Under the pieces are notes generated by a model. It ran no database searches. It was given only the letters and a program-made list of their open reading frames with translations, and was not told the origin of the DNA. DNA of 64,000 nucleotides, taken from NCBI GenBank assembly GCA_013426015.1, contig CP058998.1:620001-684000 (forward strand), in the 5' to 3' direction. Below are positions 416-15,688 of the stretch, piece after piece. Made by a program: the position numbers and the translations under genes. This DNA is from Candidatus Fermentimicrarchaeum limneticum. GTDB lineage: Archaea; Micrarchaeota; Micrarchaeia; Burarchaeales; Fermentimicrarchaeaceae. The stretch's first letter is position 1. Each line of letters starts with the position of its first letter.

Positions 416-761
416 TTTCCAGCCTCCTGTCAATTCCGTAGAGCTTGAGCTTCTGTCTGACTACGAAAAGTTTGATTATAACATTCTCGTATTCAATTGC
501 GGTTGCCTTGATTTTCTGGTAGCTTCCAATCCTTGAAACGTCAAAAGATTCAATTATGCTTGGGGCGGTTCTTCCGTAAAATCTCCTCTCAAAAGCATTC
601 TCGTCAATGGACCTTATCTTTTGCGCAAAAGTCTCCAGCAAATTAGCATCATCAGCCAGAACCCCGGCCAACTCGCCTTTTCTCTTAAGAAGTTCCTCGT
701 ATTCCAGTAAGAGGTAGGCCTGCTTTTTCTTGAGTTTATTCGGAAATAGCCGATAATACAA
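390..761 (-). CDS. Hypothetical coiled-coil protein
   Basis: This 123-residue basic protein is predominantly helical and probably coiled-coil. It has no Cys clusters, signal peptide or membrane segment. It starts 14 bp downstream of the tyrosine recombinase stop codon and overlaps the next gene by 26 bp, so recombinase, this gene and the partial gene at the window edge look like one transcription unit. The function is unknown. From context it may be a small accessory protein of the integrated element next to tRNA-Leu. That assignment is inference only. Confidence 0.5.
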   Translation of the reverse strand: MYYRLFPNKLKKKQAYLLLEYEELLKRKGELAGVLADDANLLETFAQKIRSIDENAFERRFYGRTAPSIIESFDVSRIGSYQKIKATAIEYENVIIKLFVVRQKLKLYGIDRRLENEKKALGR

Positions 762-2254: not shown

Positions 2255-4342
2255 ATGGATATGTTCCTGCTTGTGCCGCTCGGCTCCCTGCTCGCACTCG
2301 GGTTCTCCGCTTATCTGGCAAACGGAATACTGAAGCATGATGAGGGAGAGAAGGAGGTGAGGGAGATATCCGCCTCCATACGGGAAGGCGCCAGTGCTTT
2401 TCTCAAGAGGCAGTACGGCACGGTTGGAGTGATAGGGTCTGTCGTGCTGCTCCTGCTGCTCGTGCTCGCATACTTCGGCAATGTTTCATACTTCCTCCCC
2501 TATGCATTTGTTCATGGGATGATAAGCTGCGCCCTTGCAGGCTTCATAGGTATGTCCATTTCAACAAGGGCGAACGGCAGGACGACAAATGCTGCAAAGA
2601 CGAGCCTGAGCCCTGCCTTGAACATTGCTTTCAGCAGCGGCGCGATAATGGGTTTGTGCGTTGCGGGCATTGTCCTCATGGACTTGACCATCTGGTATTT
2701 CATACTGGACCACTTCTACCCCGGTGACATTGAGCTCATAACAGACGTGATGGTTTCCTCCGCAGTGGGAACGAGCTTCATGGCATTCTTCGCAAGGGTT
2801 GGGGGAGGAATCTATACAAAAGCGGCAGATGTCGGAGCAGATTTGGTTGGGAAGATTGAGAAGGGGATTCCTGAGGATGACGCGAGGAATGCGGCGGTGA
2901 TTGCAGACCTGGTGGGGGACAATGTTGGTGATGTTGCGGGGATGGGTGCTGATTTGCATGAATCATATGCAAGCGCAACGCTTGCTGCAATGTCCCTGGG
3001 TGTTTTTGCATTCATCAAAACCGGTTTAAGCTTCAATGCAATGATGGCTCCTCTGCTCATAATGTTTGGAGGGGTCATCTCATCAATAATTGGAACTTTC
3101 TTCGTGGAAGTGAAAGGGGAAAGGGTGAGACACAGGGAGTTGCTCAATGCGATAAGGAGAGGAGTCTATGCGACATCCGCCCTCTCCTTCATAATATCGT
3201 TTATAATCATCTACCTCCTGTTCGGGATGGAGCATATAGGGCTTTTCGGCTCAATGGCTGCAGGCTTGATTGCAGGAGTGGTGATTGGGTTTGTAAGCGA
3301 GTATTACACCTCCTGCACGTATTCGCCTACGAGAAGGGTTGCGCTTTCTGCGGAGAGCGGGACCGCAACGCTCATCATCAGTGGAATTTCAGTGGGCATG
3401 CTGAGCACAGCTGTCCCGATAATTATTGTGAGCATGGTCGCTGTCCTCGGCTACTACCTTGCAGGGGGAGCGGCGAACCATGACATGGGGTTGTACGGAA
3501 TCGCACTTACAGCGGTTGGCATGCTGAGCACGCTTGGGATGACGCTTGCAACTGATGCATACGGGCCTGTCGCAGACAATGCAGCAGGGATTGCTGAGAT
3601 GACCCACCAGCCCCCAAAAATAAGGAGCAGGCTGGATGCGCTTGACGCGATAGGCAACACAACAGCCGCGACTGGAAAGGGGTATGTGATTGCCTCCGGC
3701 GCATTGACGGTGATTGCGCTCATCACTGCATATACGCAGCTCGTGAACAGGATTATTGCGCCTGCTGAACTCACCCTAAGCTTGGAGGACCCGCTTGTCG
3801 TTGCAGGCCTGTTCATGGGAGGGATGCTTCCCTTCGTTTTCAGCTCAACGACAATGAAGGCAGTCGGCCATACTGCGGAAAGCATAGTTGCTGAGGTGAG
3901 GAGGCAGTGGAGGATTAAGGGGGTGCGGGAGGGCAAGGTGAAGCCGGATTATGCAAAATGCGTTGATATATGCACAAAAGCAGCTCTTGGAGCTTTGATG
4001 ACACCCGCCCTCATAGCAGTCGCAAGCCCGATAATTGTCGGCTTCACACTCGGACCTAAGGGTGCGATTGCCCTGCTAATGGGCGCGCTTGTTTCCGCAT
4101 TCTCAATGGCACTCATGATGGCGAATGCAGGAGCTGTCTGGGATAATGCGAAGAAGTATATTGAAGCAGGCCATTACGGAGGGAAGGGTTCGGAGCAACA
4201 CAAAGCAGCGGTTGTTGGTGACACTGTGGGAGACCCATTCAAGGACACTTCAGGTCCTTCTCTGGATGGATTGATAAAGCTCATGACAATGATTTCGCTG
4301 GCAATCGCACCTGTCGTTGTGAAGTATGCACTGCTGAAGTGA
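2255..4342 (+). CDS. hppA: Membrane-bound ion-translocating pyrophosphatase
   Basis: An integral membrane pyrophosphatase (M-PPase) that couples PPi hydrolysis to H+ or Na+ export, about 695 residues with roughly 16 membrane helices. The substrate site signatures are clear: DVGADLVGK followed by DNVGDVAGMGADL in the first cytoplasmic cluster, and GDTVGDPFKDTSGPSL near the C-terminus. The motif GNTTAATGKG has Ala where K+-independent enzymes have Lys, which points to the K+-dependent class. H+ versus Na+ specificity cannot be decided by eye. I chose the ATG at 2255 behind GGTGGTG; an in-frame GTG lies at 2243. An AT-rich TATA-like stretch lies near 2190-2205. The MFS gene follows after 4 bp. 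Confidence 0.95.
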   Translation: MDMFLLVPLGSLLALGFSAYLANGILKHDEGEKEVREISASIREGASAFLKRQYGTVGVIGSVVLLLLLVLAYFGNVSYFLPYAFVHGMISCALAGFIGMSISTRANGRTTNAAKTSLSPALNIAFSSGAIMGLCVAGIVLMDLTIWYFILDHFYPGDIELITDVMVSSAVGTSFMAFFARVGGGIYTKAADVGADLVGKIEKGIPEDDARNAAVIADLVGDNVGDVAGMGADLHESYASATLAAMSLGVFAFIKTGLSFNAMMAPLLIMFGGVISSIIGTFFVEVKGERVRHRELLNAIRRGVYATSALSFIISFIIIYLLFGMEHIGLFGSMAAGLIAGVVIGFVSEYYTSCTYSPTRRVALSAESGTATLIISGISVGMLSTAVPIIIVSMVAVLGYYLAGGAANHDMGLYGIALTAVGMLSTLGMTLATDAYGPVADNAAGIAEMTHQPPKIRSRLDALDAIGNTTAATGKGYVIASGALTVIALITAYTQLVNRIIAPAELTLSLEDPLVVAGLFMGGMLPFVFSSTTMKAVGHTAESIVAEVRRQWRIKGVREGKVKPDYAKCVDICTKAALGALMTPALIAVASPIIVGFTLGPKGAIALLMGALVSAFSMALMMANAGAVWDNAKKYIEAGHYGGKGSEQHKAAVVGDTVGDPFKDTSGPSLDGLIKLMTMISLAIAPVVVKYALLK

Positions 4343-6657: not shown

Positions 6658-6670
6658 AGTGGGGCTGCTG
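6658..6670. repeat. Left attachment repeat (attL) of the tRNA-Pro element
   Basis: The 13-mer AGTGGGGCTGCTG is identical to 13511-13523, which covers the last bases of tRNA-Pro plus three flanking bases. It lies in the 91-bp gap between the chromosomal acetyltransferase and the first element gene, exactly where the far end of a tRNA-integrated element is expected. Confidence 0.75.
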
Positions 6671-6705
6671 TGAATTAATTTTTCAGTTCAGTTTCTCTAC
6701 CATTT

Positions 6706-7098
6706 TTAAGATTGCTTTGGCTTTATAACAAAATTCTCCTCTATTCTAACTTCCCCTGTCTTCCCATCCATTATAACCTTCCAACTTATACCGGTATTAT
6801 CTGGAACCTTATCATCGATATTAAGTGTTTTATCTTCTACCAATCCATTTTGAGCAGATTCAACAACTCTTCTTATTGAATGAACCTGACCCCTTGACTT
6901 CATAAAGAGAATTCTTCCATCAAGCGTTATACCCTGATGTATATGCGGTTCAGTTTTGCCCCTTTTGCCTATCAACATATCTACATACGCACATCCTATA
7001 ATTTTATCATGTTTAAGTCTTACTTTAACCCAATATTTCTTATCTCCAGTTTCAAATTTCGTAGGTTTCATCCAAAGGTTTGTTTGCAGTTCACTCAT
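6706..7098 (-). CDS. Hypothetical protein of the integrated element
   Basis: A soluble protein of about 130 residues if the ATG at 7098 (MSELQTNLW) is used; an in-frame start at 7122 would add eight. It is beta-rich and basic, with no signal peptide or membrane segment. It lies next to the left attachment repeat and is AT-rich relative to chromosomal genes. Similar small genes of unknown function are common at the ends of archaeal integrated elements. I do not recognise the family. Confidence 0.55.
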   Translation of the reverse strand: MSELQTNLWMKPTKFETGDKKYWVKVRLKHDKIIGCAYVDMLIGKRGKTEPHIHQGITLDGRILFMKSRGQVHSIRRVVESAQNGLVEDKTLNIDDKVPDNTGISWKVIMDGKTGEVRIEENFVIKPKQS

Positions 7099-7207
7099 TG
7101 TACCCACTCTTTCTCTCCCCAAAATGTTGAATTCTTTATTGGACCTGATATTAGCAGATTGTTTGATGCTGAACCAAAAGAACCTTGGGAGATGAGATGA
7201 ATATCCC

Positions 7208-7882
7208 TCATTTTTTAATAAACTTACGTCCGATGAGTATACCTACAAATAAAACGACTACTAAAAGCAGAATTGCACCGCAGATAAACAGGTAAGGATT
7301 TAGAATGGTACTCCAATTCATTGCGCTATTCGAGACTGGCTTGTAGGCGCAATTAGCCGTATCTATGGTATAACCTTCCTTCTCTTTCAATGGGCATACA
7401 CATTGGCAATTATCTCCAGAATTATCAAGTACAAAGGTTCCTCCGCATGTTATAGGACAATATTTCTCAAATTCAATCCAGAACGGTGCTGATGTTTTAT
7501 GGTCAGCGCTATTAACGTCGTAGACTGTCAATTCACACATGCCCTTAAATGCCCTGCTCGTAGCAACAAAAAAAGTTATATTGACTTCGCCATTTGCTGG
7601 AACCCCAAAATTTTGTATCGAACCAGTAGAGCAATTACTATACGCACCGAATACCGCATCAACATTTGCTGTGTTCTTTACAGTCGCATGCACAATACTC
7701 TGCGAGGTTGCAGTCCCAGTAACAAAATCATCAATTCGGGTTATGTTCGGTGTCCCTGGCGAGCCGATCTTGATTCCAGGTCCACACCGCATCAAAGTTC
7801 CTGTTCTTATTTCTTGCATCTTTGACCATTCGCTGCAAGTCAGGCCTGTTCCTGTTTCCACCGCTAAACCCGTTATCCGCAA
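7208..7882 (-). CDS. Truncated type I membrane protein with Ig-like ectodomain (possible fusogen or spike remnant)
   Basis: The frame encodes 224 residues, but only those after about residue 46 look genuine, because the first part overlaps a serine recombinase fragment in another frame. Residues about 55-141 form an Ig-like beta sandwich with paired Cys at 84 and 116 and the pattern ATVKNTANVDAVFGAYSNC. A Cys-rich stalk spans 142-180 with CxCxC, one membrane helix spans about 196-218, and a short basic tail follows. This layout matches the C-terminal part of class II-like fusogens (HAP2/fusexin domain III plus stalk and anchor), but generic Ig-like surface proteins share it. It has no signal peptide and probably no native start, so it is likely a 5'-truncated pseudogene. 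Confidence 0.55.
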   Translation of the reverse strand: MRITGLAVETGTGLTCSEWSKMQEIRTGTLMRCGPGIKIGSPGTPNITRIDDFVTGTATSQSIVHATVKNTANVDAVFGAYSNCSTGSIQNFGVPANGEVNITFFVATSRAFKGMCELTVYDVNSADHKTSAPFWIEFEKYCPITCGGTFVLDNSGDNCQCVCPLKEKEGYTIDTANCAYKPVSNSAMNWSTILNPYLFICGAILLLVVVLFVGILIGRKFIKK

Positions 7883-8006
7883 ACGTGGCAGTTAGGGTAT
7901 GCCCCATTTCTTTTAGCTGCTCCTTGCCAATCTCAATCTGCCTTTCAATAGGTGGGGCCTTGTTAGTATCATCATCCGATTCCCTTGCGTATATAACAAA
8001 TTTCAT
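7731..8006 (-). pseudogene. Serine recombinase, N-terminal fragment
   Basis: The first 85 or so residues match the N-terminal catalytic domain of serine resolvases and invertases: YARES with nucleophile S10, the pattern PPIERQIEIGKEQL, DNGFSGGNRNRPDLQRM, and the conserved WNQDRLARD ending. The frame stops a few residues later at residue 91, where full-length proteins have at least another 90 residues including helix E and the DNA-binding part. The sequence switches at about 7740 into the coding sequence of the neighbouring membrane-protein remnant, so a deletion joined two genes. It should be inactive for recombination. Confidence 0.8.
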
Positions 8007-8066
8007 GTTTTACCTCGTAAAGCTAAAAAGGAAAGGCTGGCAATCTGAGGGGCTACGCCTCCTCAG

Positions 8067-11036
8067 CTACCCCCCGTTTAACAAGCAGCTCTGCTTCCTT
8101 CTGTGGCAGCTCTGCAATGTCACCCTGTTTGAATGGGCCATAGGTCTTCCCATCAGCACCCTGGAACTTGGGACATGGCTTTTTGAACCTAATACCCACC
8201 CCCCCCCTGCGGGTTGCGGGTGCATAGTATCAGATTGTGATACTAACACGTCTGAGTTTTCTTTTTTTTGTAAAAAGTTAGTATCATTTTTAGAAGCCTC
8301 CTCTCTCCTCAGGGCATTTTGACTTAGTATCAAATTTGGGGGACTTAGTATCACGCTGGTATCATTGGACCCGCCCGTTGGTTTGATACTATCTTTTGTA
8401 GTTTCAGGCTCGACATACGACGGGATAGTATCATTTTTTGATACTATGACACTGGGAACTGCGACCCCCCCTCCCTTTTTTAATTTATGCAAGAAAATTA
8501 CCCCACGGGCAGTCAACTCCGCCCCCTTGCCAGTCGTTGCCTTTATGAGACCGAAATCACCCAGGGTCCCATAGCTCCGCTTGATAGTGGCTGTTGAAAC
8601 ATCCAATTCTTGTGAGAGTGCAGTTGAAGTCTTCGCCGTTATCTTGATGCTATCTAAAATTTTGTAGTCCGTACTGTCTAGACTCTTGCAGATTTCTGTG
8701 AATTCATTCTCGGTAATTTCCAGCTTTCCCTCTTCCGATAGCTTAAAGTCTTTGAGTTGCAGGTCCTCCAGCATCTTAGTGTAAAATTCCACCGCCCTGT
8801 CAACATGAACCTTATCCACAATAACCTGCTCTTGCGTTGAGTCGGTAGAATGGAGTAGGCAGGCATACGCCACGCTGAAGCGGGTCAGCACATCCCTAAA
8901 ACCATTATGTACTATGGGGAGTGAAGGAATAGAATATTCCCTCATTATCATTTTAGCCTTTTCAATAATCTCATTTGCCGCCTCATTGGTGTAAGTGATA
9001 TGCTCGGGCTTGCGAGACCAAACCCAGTATACGTGGCGCAAGAAAATGTCGTCGGGAATTGGTCTCGTCCCAGCCTTTCGGCTGGCTATCAAGTCCTTAT
9101 CAACGTCTGCATCCCCAAAAACGTGGAAGGCATCCCACCTCGTGAGGTTGGCGGGTTCAACAAAAATGTAAGTATCAAGCCACGCCATGCAGCGATACAA
9201 GTAGTTGTTGATCGGTTTTGATTTGTTAGGGTTCAATGCTGCGGTAATGCGGACCCTTGATAGCGCCTCCCCAGCCTGCGAGCGCCTGACAATGACCCGC
9301 TGCTGCTCCAGCGCCTCTCTGAACTCGCCAATTTCATCCGAATGTATATTTTGCAGCCCATCGATGGCTACATAGCCCAAGTCATTCATGGGGAGTGCTC
9401 CCCAAACAATGGTATGGTTATCAGTGTCGATGGTGTATGTGATGCCCGCCCTGCTTGCTGACTCCGCAACTATGTAATCACCAAGATGATAATGTGAGGT
9501 GGTGGTATCCTCCATTGACTTGGACTTAAAGCACTTCGTGTCCCCGATGTACACCTCGACCAATGAGCCCCGAATCGCATTTCCCATAATGTCTGGTATT
9601 TTCGAGGGGGAATGCAGCACAAGCAGTCTGCTCTCCTTAACGAGGGGGCGCCCCACCAGGTCAGGTGAAATCTGCGAGCTTAGATCAATACCAGATGAGA
9701 AATACTTAGGGAAGTTTATCCTGTCCCCCTCGTTAATTTTAAAATCGGAGAATTCCGTTTCCAATGGCTGTATCTTTTCTGCAATAATGCTTATTTCCTT
9801 CGTCTTTGGCTCTACTATCACCTCGCCCCAAATCTTAATCTTCTTAGCAGAAGGCGGAACTCTACCAACTGCGTGAATGCGTGTAGGTGTGTAAAATTTC
9901 TTCTCATATTTTGGTATTTGCTCTAGCAAATTCTGCACATATATAACTGAATAGTTGTGCTGTGAGGCGACCATGTCGTCTGGGAAGTTGGAGAAAAATA
10001 TTGCGGCTTTTGCATCCAACTTCCTTGTGTTTTTTCTTTCTGCATCAGTGTAAATTTCATAGGGAATTGCCATCTGGAATTTCCCTCCGACTACACGTAC
10101 CTCCACGCACACCTCGCATCCAATATAATCTGCAGAAAGGTCAGACACGGGGAGTTTAGGAACGTCGTGCCGAATTTCACTGGGTTCTTTCTCTCTCTTT
10201 GCAGCCAGCCCAAGCTCCATTGCTCGTTTTTTCACTTGGTCATATTTTTGTTTGTCCAGTGCACCACGTCCACACTCACCGCAAGTGAGGATGCCTTCCC
10301 GCAATGCAAGCAATTGCATTGCACCTGCCCCAACCATATGACGGAAGCAATACCAAACATCTTTTTTTGTATCAATTTTGAAATTCATTGGCGGTGTTGA
10401 AGTGCTCCCGTGGAAGGGATGCGCACCTTGAAACACTCCGTCCCCCATATTCCTCAACTTCCGCAAATTGACGATGTCCGCACAAGTGAAGCTGAGCCTG
10501 CTACTGCTGATTACCCTTGTCTCTTCTTCTGCAACTTCTTCTATTGCCTTGGTCATAAACGGAGAGAGAATTTCTACAATCAGTGACCAGGCAACTTCCG
10601 CTATCTCCACATCGTTCTTCACCGAGTAAGGTTTCCCATTGGGGTGAATACTGGGAGGTATGACGAGCACTTCTTCCTTAGCACGCACTGAAAAAACTTC
10701 CCCATATACATTGCTCACTTCTTTTATGTTACAGGCACCCTTACAACGAAAGACGAAGTTTTCATGCCCACTACCAGTGAGAAGGGAGAAGGTGCGGGGC
10801 AATTTCTCTCCTATTGCCATTGCCACTTCGGGCTTGTCGCAGTCTATCCCAATCACGGCGTCATATCCCGCAACTAACCCTATGTTTCCTTCCCAGGAGG
10901 TTATTTTTTTATCTGTATACTGATAATTCTGTGTAGTATTCCATGCAGTTTCAAATGGTCCCTTCTGTCCCTTCTTAATCTTAGCAAATCGGAATGCTGA
11001 GTTTTGCAACTGCTTTGGAATTGAGATTGCACTCAT
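8067..11036 (-). CDS. Primase-polymerase fused to MCM-like helicase domain (replication protein)
   Basis: A 989-residue multidomain replication protein. Residues 1-160 are an archaeo-eukaryotic primase (PrimPol) domain with IDCD at 64-67, GSGH at 88-91 and the VIPPSIHPNG motif near 125-134. Residues about 200-245 look like a CHC2-type zinc finger, with HPFH at 206-209 and CFRH at 230-233. Residues about 440-640 resemble an MCM AAA+ core: GDTKCFKS at 498-505 as Walker A, AID at 557-559 as Walker B, ALNP at 600-603 as sensor 1. The usual Walker B Glu is Gly560 and the SRFD arginine finger is not conserved. A winged helix spans about 786-850, then a low-complexity tail. The start overlaps the upstream Sm-like gene by ATGA. 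It is probably the element's replication initiator. Confidence 0.8.
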   Translation of the reverse strand: MSAISIPKQLQNSAFRFAKIKKGQKGPFETAWNTTQNYQYTDKKITSWEGNIGLVAGYDAVIGIDCDKPEVAMAIGEKLPRTFSLLTGSGHENFVFRCKGACNIKEVSNVYGEVFSVRAKEEVLVIPPSIHPNGKPYSVKNDVEIAEVAWSLIVEILSPFMTKAIEEVAEEETRVISSSRLSFTCADIVNLRKLRNMGDGVFQGAHPFHGSTSTPPMNFKIDTKKDVWYCFRHMVGAGAMQLLALREGILTCGECGRGALDKQKYDQVKKRAMELGLAAKREKEPSEIRHDVPKLPVSDLSADYIGCEVCVEVRVVGGKFQMAIPYEIYTDAERKNTRKLDAKAAIFFSNFPDDMVASQHNYSVIYVQNLLEQIPKYEKKFYTPTRIHAVGRVPPSAKKIKIWGEVIVEPKTKEISIIAEKIQPLETEFSDFKINEGDRINFPKYFSSGIDLSSQISPDLVGRPLVKESRLLVLHSPSKIPDIMGNAIRGSLVEVYIGDTKCFKSKSMEDTTTSHYHLGDYIVAESASRAGITYTIDTDNHTIVWGALPMNDLGYVAIDGLQNIHSDEIGEFREALEQQRVIVRRSQAGEALSRVRITAALNPNKSKPINNYLYRCMAWLDTYIFVEPANLTRWDAFHVFGDADVDKDLIASRKAGTRPIPDDIFLRHVYWVWSRKPEHITYTNEAANEIIEKAKMIMREYSIPSLPIVHNGFRDVLTRFSVAYACLLHSTDSTQEQVIVDKVHVDRAVEFYTKMLEDLQLKDFKLSEEGKLEITENEFTEICKSLDSTDYKILDSIKITAKTSTALSQELDVSTATIKRSYGTLGDFGLIKATTGKGAELTARGVIFLHKLKKGGGVAVPSVIVSKNDTIPSYVEPETTKDSIKPTGGSNDTSVILSPPNLILSQNALRREEASKNDTNFLQKKENSDVLVSQSDTMHPQPAGGGWVLGSKSHVPSSRVLMGRPMAHSNRVTLQSCHRRKQSCLLNGG
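8226..8445. repeat. Iteron-like array of AGTATCA, candidate replication origin
   Basis: Eight exact copies of AGTATCA occur within 220 bp: direct at 8226, 8280, 8326, 8347 and 8427, inverted (TGATACT) at 8238, 8384 and 8439. A one-mismatch copy lies at 8358. Two pairs form palindromes: 8226-8244 (7-bp arms, 5-bp spacer) and 8425-8447 (9-bp arms, 5-bp spacer). T-runs lie nearby. The array is inside the 3' end of the primase-helicase gene, in the part that encodes a low-complexity tail, which suggests DNA-level selection. Confidence 0.7.
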
Positions 11037-11221
11037 GGCCTCTCCTCCTCGATTCGAATAACTCTGCTCATTGGTATTGCGCGCTCTTTCCCTTCTGTCA
11101 AGAAAATAAGGAAGTGAGAATTGTAACCAAGAATTTTGCCTCTCATGAAAAAAGGCTTAATTCCATCGTCATAAACAAGCTGCACTTCTTTGTTTAGAAT
11201 TTTCTCGTCCACGTTCACCAC
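11033..11221 (-). CDS. Small Sm-like/RNA-binding-type protein
   Basis: A 62-residue protein starting with GTG behind GAGGTGA. The sequence is beta-rich and has the rhythm of an Sm/Lsm fold: a short N-terminal helix, VQLVYDDG, a GKILGYNS turn, a strand of hydrophobic residues and a final AIPMSRVIRIEE. It lacks obvious signature residues, so the fold is a suggestion. Its stop codon overlaps the start of the primase-helicase gene (ATGA), implying translational coupling with the replication protein. A role in copy control or as a replication accessory is possible but unproven. Confidence 0.55.
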   Translation of the reverse strand: MVNVDEKILNKEVQLVYDDGIKPFFMRGKILGYNSHFLIFLTEGKERAIPMSRVIRIEEERP

Positions 11222-11234
11222 ACAATCACCTCAT

Positions 11235-11375
11235 TTAAAGTTCTAAAATTTTTTTCCTCATCTCATGGCTCCTTATCTGCCCTGTCATGACCATTTCTTT
11301 GAGCTCCCGCACCCATACCGGGCTGGTTGGATCTGCAATGGCGGCATCATCAGTCGTGTCTATCACCCTTGTCAT
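11235..11375 (-). CDS. Possible 46-residue ORF following the RHH gene
   Basis: A short frame starting at an ATG inside the end of the ribbon-helix-helix gene encodes an acidic N-terminal half and a helical C-terminal half (WVRELKEMVMTGQIRSHEM). The overlap with the upstream gene would permit translational coupling, and it ends 13 bp before the Sm-like gene. It has no recognisable motif and is short enough to be chance. It could also be a C-terminal part of the RHH protein separated by a frameshift. Confidence 0.3.
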   Translation of the reverse strand: MTRVIDTTDDAAIADPTSPVWVRELKEMVMTGQIRSHEMRKKILEL

Positions 11376-11502
11376 CCAAATAAAGCGACTTCTGAATTTG
11401 CGTCGAGACGGGAATACCGTACTTTTCTTTTCTCTTCCTGAGTTCCCGCCAAAGTTTCTTAGGGAGTGAAATCGAGCCAACCTCTGTTGTCGTTTTTTCC
11501 AT
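11350..11502 (-). CDS. Ribbon-helix-helix DNA-binding protein, 50 residues
   Basis: The protein has the pattern of an Arc/MetJ/CopG ribbon-helix-helix domain: a short beta strand (TEVGSISLPKKLW), helix A (RELRKRKEKYG), a turn (IPVS) and helix B (TQIQKSLYL). Such proteins dimerise and insert the strand into the DNA major groove. Start ATG at 11502, stop TGA at 11350. It is the first gene of the leftward replication operon and lies 9 bp from a perfect palindrome, so autoregulation of the operon, as in plasmid copy-control CopG proteins, is the likely role. A longer frame exists here in another register but looks less protein-like. Confidence 0.65.
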   Translation of the reverse strand: MEKTTTEVGSISLPKKLWRELRKRKEKYGIPVSTQIQKSLYLDDKGDRHD

Positions 11503-11510
11503 ATTTATCA

Positions 11511-11580
11511 TAGGTCAATGACCTACTAATGTTAAGACTAGTAGGATTATTAAACCTTTCGGTTCCCAACCTATTAATAG
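11511..11580. promoter_or_regulatory. Divergent promoter region with three palindromes (candidate operators)
   Basis: The 86-bp gap between the RHH gene and the divergent regulator holds TAGGTCA-A-TGACCTA at 11511-11525, CCTACTA-N10-TAGTAGG at 11522-11545, and CTATTAATAG at 11571-11580. The first two share the half-site CCTA/TAGG and overlap. They are good candidates for binding by the RHH or winged-helix protein. Confidence 0.6.
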
Positions 11581-11588
11581 AGGGTTAA

Positions 11589-12269
11589 ATGGTTTTAAGA
11601 AAACTCACCAACAAAGAGAGATATGAACTTGTGTTGAATAGCGCCAAATATTTTAGATTATTTGTTAGTCTTTATCACAAGCCAGAGTATCCTGAAAACC
11701 TTTGTGAAAAATTTAAAGTCAGTGTTGCAACTATGGGTGAAAGACTGAAGAATTTATGTGATGTGGGATTGATTAAAAAGGATAAGAAAGATGGGCGAAA
11801 GCAATATTATGATTTGGATGAGATGGGTTTTTTAAAAGTTTTTTGGAAAGAGCAATTAGATTTTATGATAAAAAAGTTCTTTGATGTTTCACGTGAAACA
11901 CAAGTATCAGAAAACCCAGAACTTTTGAAGCGGTTCAAAACGTTTGAATCTTTAAGACCCGAGATAGCACCAATTTTACTGGAACTAATTCTTATGGCTT
12001 TATCATTCCCATCAGTTAGAGAATCTAGGTTATCATTGAGAGAGTTTCTAACAAAACTTATCTATTCACAATTTAAACTGTTGGATTACAATTGGGAGCA
12101 TCCTAATCTATGGAAAGGAAACAAAGAATTAGAGGAGACATTGAACAAAACTTTACCGATAAAAGATCCAGTTCAAAAATACGTTGCATTATTTGATTCA
12201 GAACCACTTGATGAGCCAGCGAAAAGGTTTCTTGAATCTATGTCCAAAAAAACAATGAAGAAAAAATAA
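11589..12269 (+). CDS. Winged-helix transcriptional regulator
   Basis: A 226-residue protein with an N-terminal winged helix-turn-helix at about residues 18-85, ArsR or MarR-like: recognition region ENLCEKFKVSVATMGERLKNL, wing KKDGRKQYYDLDEMG. The rest is helical with no known domain and could sense a ligand or mediate dimerisation. It is transcribed away from the leftward replication operon and separated from it by palindromes. The gene is strongly AT-rich compared with the chromosome, consistent with foreign origin. It probably regulates the element's divergent promoters, including its own. Confidence 0.75.
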   Translation: MVLRKLTNKERYELVLNSAKYFRLFVSLYHKPEYPENLCEKFKVSVATMGERLKNLCDVGLIKKDKKDGRKQYYDLDEMGFLKVFWKEQLDFMIKKFFDVSRETQVSENPELLKRFKTFESLRPEIAPILLELILMALSFPSVRESRLSLREFLTKLIYSQFKLLDYNWEHPNLWKGNKELEETLNKTLPIKDPVQKYVALFDSEPLDEPAKRFLESMSKKTMKKK

Positions 12270-12313
12270 TAATTCTGAAGAAATAACTCAAAAAGGTAAG
12301 GGTGAGAGGCAAT

Positions 12314-13468
12314 TTACTCCCATTCCGAGAGCATCTTTTTGACTTTCGGCTGCTTCATCAGCCAGTCCATGAACCTGTCCCGCTTTTCCCGCTCAACATA
12401 TTCCTTTTTGAGTGTCTCATCTGTCAAAGGAAAAGAGCATTGCGAGCAGTATAAGGAATCAACCCTATTCTCGATCTTGCACTTGGGGCATATTACGGGT
12501 TTCAGTATGCTTTCCTCTTTCTTCTCCTCAACCTTTCCATTTATCCTCAGCAGCTCCGTATCAACATCTTGGTTCAGCATGGAGATATAAGTATCGCACA
12601 TAGCGGTTCGTGTCCACCCAAAGACAACCTTCAGCTGTGAACTGGTTAAAAACTTTGCAAGAAATGTGGCCCTTGATGCCCTCCATGCGTGGGGATGAGT
12701 CGGCTTCTGGATCCCGCATCTTGCAGCAGTCCTTTCAGTAATCCTCTTGAGCCCGGGATAGGTCAAAGGTATCTTTGAGTAGCTTTTCCCCTGGTTAAAT
12801 ATCATGACCCACAAAGGCGCTGCAATATTATCCTTGTCAGGGTGCACTTTCAAAAGGTATTCTTTCAGATAAGGAGCTGCCTCAACAACCCTGACATACC
12901 TGTCGCCTGTCTTTCCACTCAGCATTACTCGCGCTCCGTACTCATCAAATATAACACTCCCGACCTTCATGCCCAACAGCTCCGCAGCCCTGGCTCCCGA
13001 GCTCCAAAGAGTCATAAGAATTGCCTTGTTTCTCAGATTCTGCTCGCTGTCAACCATTCTCAGCACATCAGATTCAACCAGCATATTCTCAGGCAGCTTG
13101 CGGTCCTGGTGCTCCATCTTTGTACGCACATCCTCAATCTCAAGAGGGTGCGGGTTCTTGATTAGCCACTTATAGAATTGCTTGAATGTCTGCCTCAGGT
13201 TCTCCCTGGTCTTGATGCTTATTTTGCTTTCATTAATCTTGGTGGTGAGAGCGACAACATCAGCACGGCCTTTAAACTTCTTCCAAGGCTTTGCCTGCAT
13301 CTTGGTCATCATCTTCAGTAAGCAGATTATTTTTATTACTGTATTTTCCCTCAAATTGCTTATGGCTTTTCGTTCATGCACAAACTTCTTGATGAGCTCC
13401 TTGTCATCCTTGCTTATGCTCTCCTCCTCATCCAGGCAGTCAATGGCTTGTTTTGTAGTCCACGTCAT
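12314..13468 (-). CDS. Tyrosine recombinase/integrase with C-terminal zinc ribbon
   Basis: A 384-residue recombinase. The SAM-like core-binding domain is at about 25-110 and the catalytic domain at about 128-310. Catalytic residues are R160, K186, H260 and R263 in HAWR, W285 at the third His position, and nucleophile Y294. Zinc-ribbon CxxC pairs lie at about 327-345. The start is 45 bp from tRNA-Pro(CGG), its presumed attachment target. It shares with the recombinase at 776-1981 the zinc ribbon, the W substitution (FGWT) and the segment HPDKDN followed by APLW, so both belong to one archaeal integrase subfamily. It would catalyse integration and excision of the element at the 13-bp repeats. 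Confidence 0.9.
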   Translation of the reverse strand: MTWTTKQAIDCLDEEESISKDDKELIKKFVHERKAISNLRENTVIKIICLLKMMTKMQAKPWKKFKGRADVVALTTKINESKISIKTRENLRQTFKQFYKWLIKNPHPLEIEDVRTKMEHQDRKLPENMLVESDVLRMVDSEQNLRNKAILMTLWSSGARAAELLGMKVGSVIFDEYGARVMLSGKTGDRYVRVVEAAPYLKEYLLKVHPDKDNIAAPLWVMIFNQGKSYSKIPLTYPGLKRITERTAARCGIQKPTHPHAWRASRATFLAKFLTSSQLKVVFGWTRTAMCDTYISMLNQDVDTELLRINGKVEEKKEESILKPVICPKCKIENRVDSLYCSQCSFPLTDETLKKEYVEREKRDRFMDWLMKQPKVKKMLSEWE

Positions 13469-13510
13469 AGAATAGTTTCTGTAATATGCTTATTTATAAA
13501 CTACTATGCA

Positions 13511-13523
13511 AGTGGGGCTGCTG
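13511..13523. repeat. Right attachment repeat (attR) in tRNA-Pro
   Basis: AGTGGGGCTGCTG covers the 3' acceptor strand and discriminator of tRNA-Pro and three bases beyond. It is identical to 6658-6670. Integration into the 3' end of a tRNA leaves the tRNA intact on one side and a short copy at the other end, as seen here. Confidence 0.75.
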
Positions 13524-13585
13524 AGATTTGAACTCAGGTCACGGAGTCCCGAACCCCGGAGCATACCAGACTAGCCCACAGCCCC
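13513..13585 (-). tRNA. tRNA-Pro(CGG)
   Basis: A 73-nt tRNA on the minus strand. The acceptor pairs GGGGCTG with CAGCCCC and the discriminator is A. The anticodon stem CGGGG/CTCCG encloses TTCGGGA, giving anticodon CGG. The T loop is TTCAAAT. No intron is present. Its 3' end is the attachment site of the element to its left. Confidence 0.95.
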
Positions 13586-15497: not shown

Positions 15498-15688
15498 AGT
15501 GAAACTGACATGCCTCTTTTCAGGCAAAAACGGGCGCCTCACGCCTGAGCCTGTCTTTTTTCTGTTTCACTTCGGAGCAGGTTTTTGAGTGAAACTGACT
15601 TTTCCGCTTCACCGACGAGAGGAAGCCGAAAACCGGTGGCTGTTTCCACTGTTTCCACCGACGTGTTTCATACCTGAGTGAAACTGAC
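15498..15688. repeat. Three AGTGAAACTGAC repeats at 90-bp spacing in a 299-bp intergenic region
   Basis: The 12-mer AGTGAAACTGAC occurs at 15498, 15588 and 15677, all on the plus strand and 90 and 89 bp apart. The intervening sequences differ but can form hairpins, for example TGCCT/AGGCA after copy 1, and GCTTC/GAAGC and CGGTGG/CCACCG after copy 2. GTTTCACT at 15564-15571 is the reverse complement of the repeat's first eight bases. No protein-coding frame is convincing between argS and tRNA-Arg. It may be a structured non-coding RNA or a degenerate tandem repeat. Confidence 0.55.

Follow-up and report, generated by a model that had tools for sequence, protein, structure and literature searches.

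Within the gene for the replication protein of a small integrated element in Candidatus Fermentimicrarchaeum limneticum, an archaeon of the Micrarchaeota, eight copies of the octamer TAGTATCA are clustered in DNA that encodes a disordered interdomain linker. We regard this cluster as probably an array of binding sites for the element's own initiator, the PrimPol-MCM-winged-helix(-Gins51_C) protein encoded by the same gene, and most likely as the core of a replication origin. The window is the whole stretch of DNA that was analysed (64,000 nucleotides); the coordinates of its features and of the related arrays are given in Table 1.

Table 1. Features of the window and repeat arrays of the relatives (relatives are numbered on their own contigs)
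Locus	Feature	Position	Strand	Remarks
Window	PrimPol-MCM-wHTH replication protein ORF	8067..11036	-	Final ~45 codons (8067-8198) probably out of frame
Window	Prim-Pol domain, residues 17-148	10593..10988	-	PF09250, 3.4e-12
Window	MCM AAA+ helicase domain, residues 452-642	9111..9683	-	PF00493, 3e-13
Window	Winged helix, residues ~793-851, directly before linker	8484..8660	-	Pfam HVO_A0261_N, 6.7e-4 (below Pfam's own cut-off)
Window	Disordered-linker coding segment holding the entire cluster	8208..8475	-	
Window	C9 homopolymer, point where the two frames part	8199..8207		Sole C/G run of at least 8 in the window
Window	Gins51_C (GINS B-type) domain	8053..8199	-	PF22090, 5.8e-16; different frame from ORF
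Window	Perfect dyad TAGTATCA-gattg-TGATACTA	8225..8245		
Window	A+T tract between half-sites inside the array	8257..8296		82% A+T, 40 bp
Window	Lone half-site TAGTATCA	8279..8286	+	
Window	Lone half-site TAGTATCA	8325..8332	+	
Window	Lone half-site TAGTATCA	8346..8353	+	
Window	Near copy TGGTATCA	8357-8364		11 bp beyond half-site 8346..8353
Window	Lone half-site TAGTATCA	8384..8391	-	
Window	Near copy TAGTTTCA	8399-8406		
Window	Perfect dyad ATAGTATCA-ttttt-TGATACTAT	8425..8447		
Window	62-aa protein upstream of replication gene	11033..11221	-	L022 encodes a related protein at this position (BLASTP 2e-5)
Window	Ribbon-helix-helix-like protein of element	11350-11511		
Window	HTH protein of element	11589-12269		
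Window	Tyrosine integrase of element	12314..13468	-	PF00589, 9e-12
Window	tRNA-Pro(CGG), integration target	13512..13585	-	Abutted by integrase
Window	Candidate far att, 13-bp copy of tRNA-Pro 3' end, AGTGGGGCTGCTG	6658..6670		Provisional; also at 13511-13523
Window	Serine recombinase, N-terminal part	7731-8006		PF00239, 1.6e-14; ends after 91 aa; overlaps ORF 7208-7882
L018 (Burarchaeum)	Three AACTGTGCA-N6-TGCACAGTT dyads	523-641		
L022	ACTGTAAAG-N5-CTTTACAGT	7072-7094		Second half copy at 7126, cut by contig end
L015	GAAGTATA, five copies	2464-2646		

The repeat array

The octamer is the true repeat unit, and its eight copies lie within 222 bp (8225-8446) in both orientations. Recounting the heptamer AGTATCA, for which the original prediction had listed eight exact copies in both orientations at 8226-8445, gave the same number, and the two pairs described there as perfect palindromes were recovered as the dyads at 8225-8245 and 8425-8447. 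Exact TAGTATCA-N5-TGATACTA dyads are present at these two positions and nowhere else in the genome. AGTATCA occurs 17 times in the window compared with 5.5 expected, and 0 of 100 shuffles attained 17. Of the 27 copies of TAGTATCA in the genome (1,204,341 bases), eight make up the cluster, one more belongs to the element (7964) and 18 are elsewhere. Eight octamers in 222 bp thus stand against 18 in the 1.2 Mb outside the element, and the equal heptamer density elsewhere in the genome that had been named as the refuting outcome is absent. The half-sites of the window, taken as a whole set, show no helical phasing. From its composition, the tract at 8257-8296 would be a candidate unwinding element; linkers in the family described below are 57-64% A+T.

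The replication protein and the end of its gene

The winged helix was assigned using weak Pfam matches, a profile search and a structure model. The profile matches were to dimeric wHTH regulators, among them Csa3, LrpA and ZitR (E about 2e-5). Structure prediction gave a wHTH with a pLDDT of ~90, for a model that was built from four sequences and whose best PDB matches have E > 0.005. The domain resembles sequence-specific dimeric regulators (Csa3, LrpA, ZitR, CzrA) and is a candidate reader of the repeats. The genome carries a separate cellular MCM gene of the normal type (677654-678679 of contig C1), so the PrimPol-MCM gene was rejected as an orthologue of the host chromosomal MCM. A perfect inverted repeat, GCAATGCAA-gcaa-TTGCATTGC, was also noted within the PrimPol-MCM gene at 10301-10322.

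The cluster had been described as embedded in the end of the replication gene. It is indeed inside the gene, but not at its end: a Gins51_C domain follows, which had been overlooked because it is read in another frame past the C9 run. In the Burarchaeum relative (L018) a single frame runs through the linker into Gins51_C (PF22090, 1.5e-7) as an in-frame fusion. The protein of this family therefore has Gins51_C beyond the linker, which places the cluster between domains and not at the protein end, and the ORF end at 8067 is probably out of frame. The frame break at C9 may be a sequencing miscount, a frameshift or the boundary of a separate ORF; the repeats are in the interdomain linker whichever of these causes holds. 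All eight octamers avoid the sole phase that gives a stop codon in the linker frame, as is expected if the linker is translated.

The integrated element

The gene resides in an integrated element of ~6.9 kb at tRNA-Pro, as follows from the position of the integrase at this tRNA gene, the 13-bp tRNA copy and the insertion-free congeners: the genes that flank the element occur in four congeneric genomes, all of which lack the stretch 6695-13510. The left boundary is provisional because one congener match extends slightly past the copy at 6658-6670 (to 6694). Prim-Pol and MCM domains are thus combined in one protein inside an integrative element, which is the mark of a mobile-element PrimPol-MCM. 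The serine recombinase (resolvase) at 7731-8006 looks truncated. Together with the frame break at C9, this may mean that the element is partly decayed, which makes its activity uncertain. The HTH gene contains TGTTTCACGTGAAACA at 11885-11900, a single copy in the genome, which we take to be identical to the parS consensus of bacteria.

Relatives in Micrarchaeota

A protein search of 301 Micrarchaeota genomes identified three relatives besides the window (L018, L022 and L015), giving four known members in all, with L022 cut off by the contig end; the named relatives are Micrarchaeota MAGs. Further matches in a profile search of the 301 genomes were cellular-type MCMs alone, with far weaker scores. 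The phylum yielded just one further Prim-Pol gene (L073, G054), which was set aside because its contig looks like a bacterial contaminant. All three relatives have a repeat cluster right after the winged helix, and the motif sequences are unrelated. In the stretches covered (15 kb of L018, 7.1 kb of L022 and 8.2 kb of L015), all exact copies of the motifs are within the linker. The three L018 dyads are the sole inverted repeats with arms of at least 8 in the first 9.5 kb, and a search of the 301 genomes for this dyad returned L018 itself only; L015 contains no spaced dyads with arms of at least 8. The spacings of 53 and 42 bp between the L018 dyads and of 54 bp between the L022 copies are near whole helical turns.

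Use of the array as an operator, through which the winged helix, the HTH protein or the ribbon-helix-helix-like protein would control an internal promoter for the downstream genes, is unlikely. The dyads are operator-like in size (21-24 bp, with arms of 8-9 bp), the element encodes further DNA-binding proteins and same-strand genes follow, the next gene in L018 being just ~170 bp past the last dyad. However, eight sites in 222 bp are many for a single operator, and neither clusters nor dyads of this motif are present at the promoters of the regulator and of the replication gene. Outside the linker, the window element has one exact copy and L018, L015 and L022 have none, and the repeats keep to the replication gene though the downstream genes vary. 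It is very improbable that the array serves in partition, as a centromere-like site for a DNA-binding partner. Clustered inverted repeats adjoin the replication gene and a small ribbon-helix-helix-like protein is encoded nearby, but ParB (PF02195) was not found in the genome, the element proteins that were scanned included nothing ParA-like, and what invariably accompanies the repeats is the MCM winged helix.

Outside Micrarchaeota, the phage and plasmid collections contained, besides host-type MCMs, just distant PrimPol-MCM proteins (Bacillus, Microbacterium), and scans of viral contigs gave no match, whether the query was the window protein, one relative or either of two alignments. The Bacillus phage and plasmid proteins share ~27% identity with the window PrimPol-MCM; no Gins51_C was seen in these homologues, and their genes, the closest non-archaeal ones, carry no cluster of repeats, either internally or nearby. 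The gene family as a whole therefore does not share the trait. The phage and plasmid PrimPol-MCM genes scanned, a set that excludes two host-type plasmid MCMs, contained no in-gene clusters, and the linker array is so far confined to the four Micrarchaeota members.

Iteron-like repeats lie upstream of a primase gene in the Methanothrix plasmid pH6Ac (GTTCGAGCAAAGTTC-type; L027, 813-1012) and in the Microbacterium phage Hiddenleaf (ATTGTGG; L026, 2331-2441). Downstream of the PrimPol-MCM gene of L018, a HerA/FtsK-like ATPase is encoded at 2898-3860 and matches the phage terminase family phrog_2666, hinting that the L018 element may be viral.

Selection on the DNA

The half-sites fall into two reading frames in the window and into two or three in the relatives, in both orientations, and a repeat at the protein level is ruled out by these mixed frames. 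For a permutation test, codons were shuffled within each linker with the amino-acid and codon content kept (5000 trials). The observed best 8-mer count was attained by 0/5000 permutations for each of the window, L018 and L015 and by 31/5000 for L022 (3/5000 at k = 9). Permutations of the window linker gave a maximum of three copies of any 8-mer versus the eight observed. Across 26 cellular MCM loci, the most frequent 8-mer was present 2 to 4 times per 220 bp.

Clusters of unrelated sequence in mixed frames, at the equivalent gene position in 3/3 relatives, support both claims of the original prediction: that the DNA and not the protein seems selected, and that this region is the most promising candidate for an origin or for the binding region of the replication protein. 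It is scarcely credible that the repeats have no function as DNA and arose in a low-complexity linker by chance, drift or protein-level constraint. Linkers in general tolerate repeats, but the copies here occur in different frames and orientations and exceed the codon permutations, the position is equivalent in 4/4 members although the motifs are unrelated, and none of the results obtained favours such an origin of the repeats.

Proposed mechanism

We infer from the arrangement of repeats and domains that the initiator itself binds the array and that replication starts there, in the following order of events. The winged helix would bind the TAGTATCA half-sites: dimers would occupy the two dyads, and the lone sites would be bound by monomers or cooperatively. 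Several copies of the protein would thereby be gathered at its own gene. The MCM ring would be loaded at the 82% A+T tract (8257-8296) within the array, the fused PrimPol would prime the opened DNA, and the Gins51_C module might help ring assembly or activation, replacing host GINS. Linker DNA could be an origin yet stay in frame because the amino-acid sequence of the linker is nearly free to vary; origin and reader would be inherited together and diverge together.

We suggest more tentatively that the gene is a self-contained archaeal replicator cassette, in which primase, MCM helicase, origin-binding winged helix, GINS-type activator and linker origin are united. Its origin specificity might shift as winged helix and linker diverge in step, keeping related elements mutually compatible.

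In cellular archaea, origins are recognized by Orc1/Cdc6. To our knowledge, replication origins have scarcely been characterised in the mobile elements of DPANN archaea, and a search of the open-access literature found no paper describing such a linker-embedded array. If the proposal is correct, a single gene provides a compact initiator-origin pair, and an MCM helicase and a GINS module are tied directly to sequence-specific origin recognition. Targeting of the MCM ring without Orc1/Cdc6 would then become testable in vitro, and coding linkers, which are seldom searched, would be places in which replication origins can hide.

Comparison with known systems

The origin of phage lambda lies inside gene O, and its inverted repeats are bound by O dimers (PMC5043065). 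Common to both cases are inverted repeats, as initiator sites, inside the initiator's own gene, and clustered repeats of this kind were found in the window and in the three relatives. Lambda O, however, is neither a helicase nor a primase, recruits the host helicase and is unrelated to the archaeal PrimPol-MCM protein; the array described here, unlike ori-lambda, is located in an archaeal PrimPol-MCM gene between a winged helix and a GINS-type domain.

The C-terminal domain of SaPI Rep recognises iterons directly downstream of the Rep gene, and the repeats to which SCCmec Cch2 binds lie downstream of the Cch2 operon (PMC7581432). These proteins are likewise helicase initiators of mobile elements, with putative origins that adjoin the helicase gene (PMC7581432). 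In the window protein, the predicted winged helix is a candidate for a sequence-specific DNA-binding domain of the kind that such helicases have at the C-terminus. The SaPI and SCCmec arrays are bacterial and downstream of the gene, whereas the window array is inside it, preceding a Gins51_C domain that is in frame in L018; nor are their helicases PrimPol-MCM fusions with Gins51_C.

In the archaeal plasmid pRN1 (Sulfolobales) the origin is just downstream of the primase-helicase gene, with a conserved structure and an unconserved sequence (PMC4234260). As in our proposal, an archaeal primase-helicase-winged helix protein is paired with an origin close to where its gene ends (3'). The pRN1 origin is a 100-nt stem-loop outside the gene and its helicase is of SF3 type, whereas the window has an MCM helicase and several short dyads with lone half-sites in the gene, and not a single downstream stem-loop of ~100 nt. 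With this precedent (PMC4234260), the palindromes could be short-loop hairpins in single-stranded DNA, whose structure is read by the primase or helicase. Perfect arms of 8-9 bp with loops of 5-6 nt, often A-rich, are present in 3/4 members, and as single-stranded DNA the linkers of L018 (z -8.3) and L022 (z -4.0) fold far better than shuffles. Those of the window (z -2.2) and L015 (z -1.8) fold weakly better. In the window, moreover, every second octamer stands alone without a partner yet has the identical exact sequence, which is expected under duplex recognition and not under hairpins. We consider a hairpin origin quite unlikely.

Among related mobile-element primases, the C-terminal WH domain of PolpTN2 has been proposed to recognise the plasmid origin (PMC5862659), and the PrimQH and phage PrimPol-MCM families similarly contain a primase, an MCM-like helicase and a winged helix (PMC5862659). 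On these comparisons, the initiator-bound array would combine lambda-like repeats within the gene with an SaPI- or pRN1-like position past a C-terminal winged helix, in an archaeal PrimPol-MCM-Gins51 protein.

Other features of the window

A 10-12-bp repeat, AGTGAAACTGAC, occurs three times at 15498-15688, just 3' of the arginyl-tRNA synthetase gene. At the left edge of the window, a second integrase-like gene (776-1981, 401 aa, with a C-terminal zinc-ribbon-like motif) abuts tRNA-Leu (2082-2169), which suggests another tRNA-targeted integrated element.
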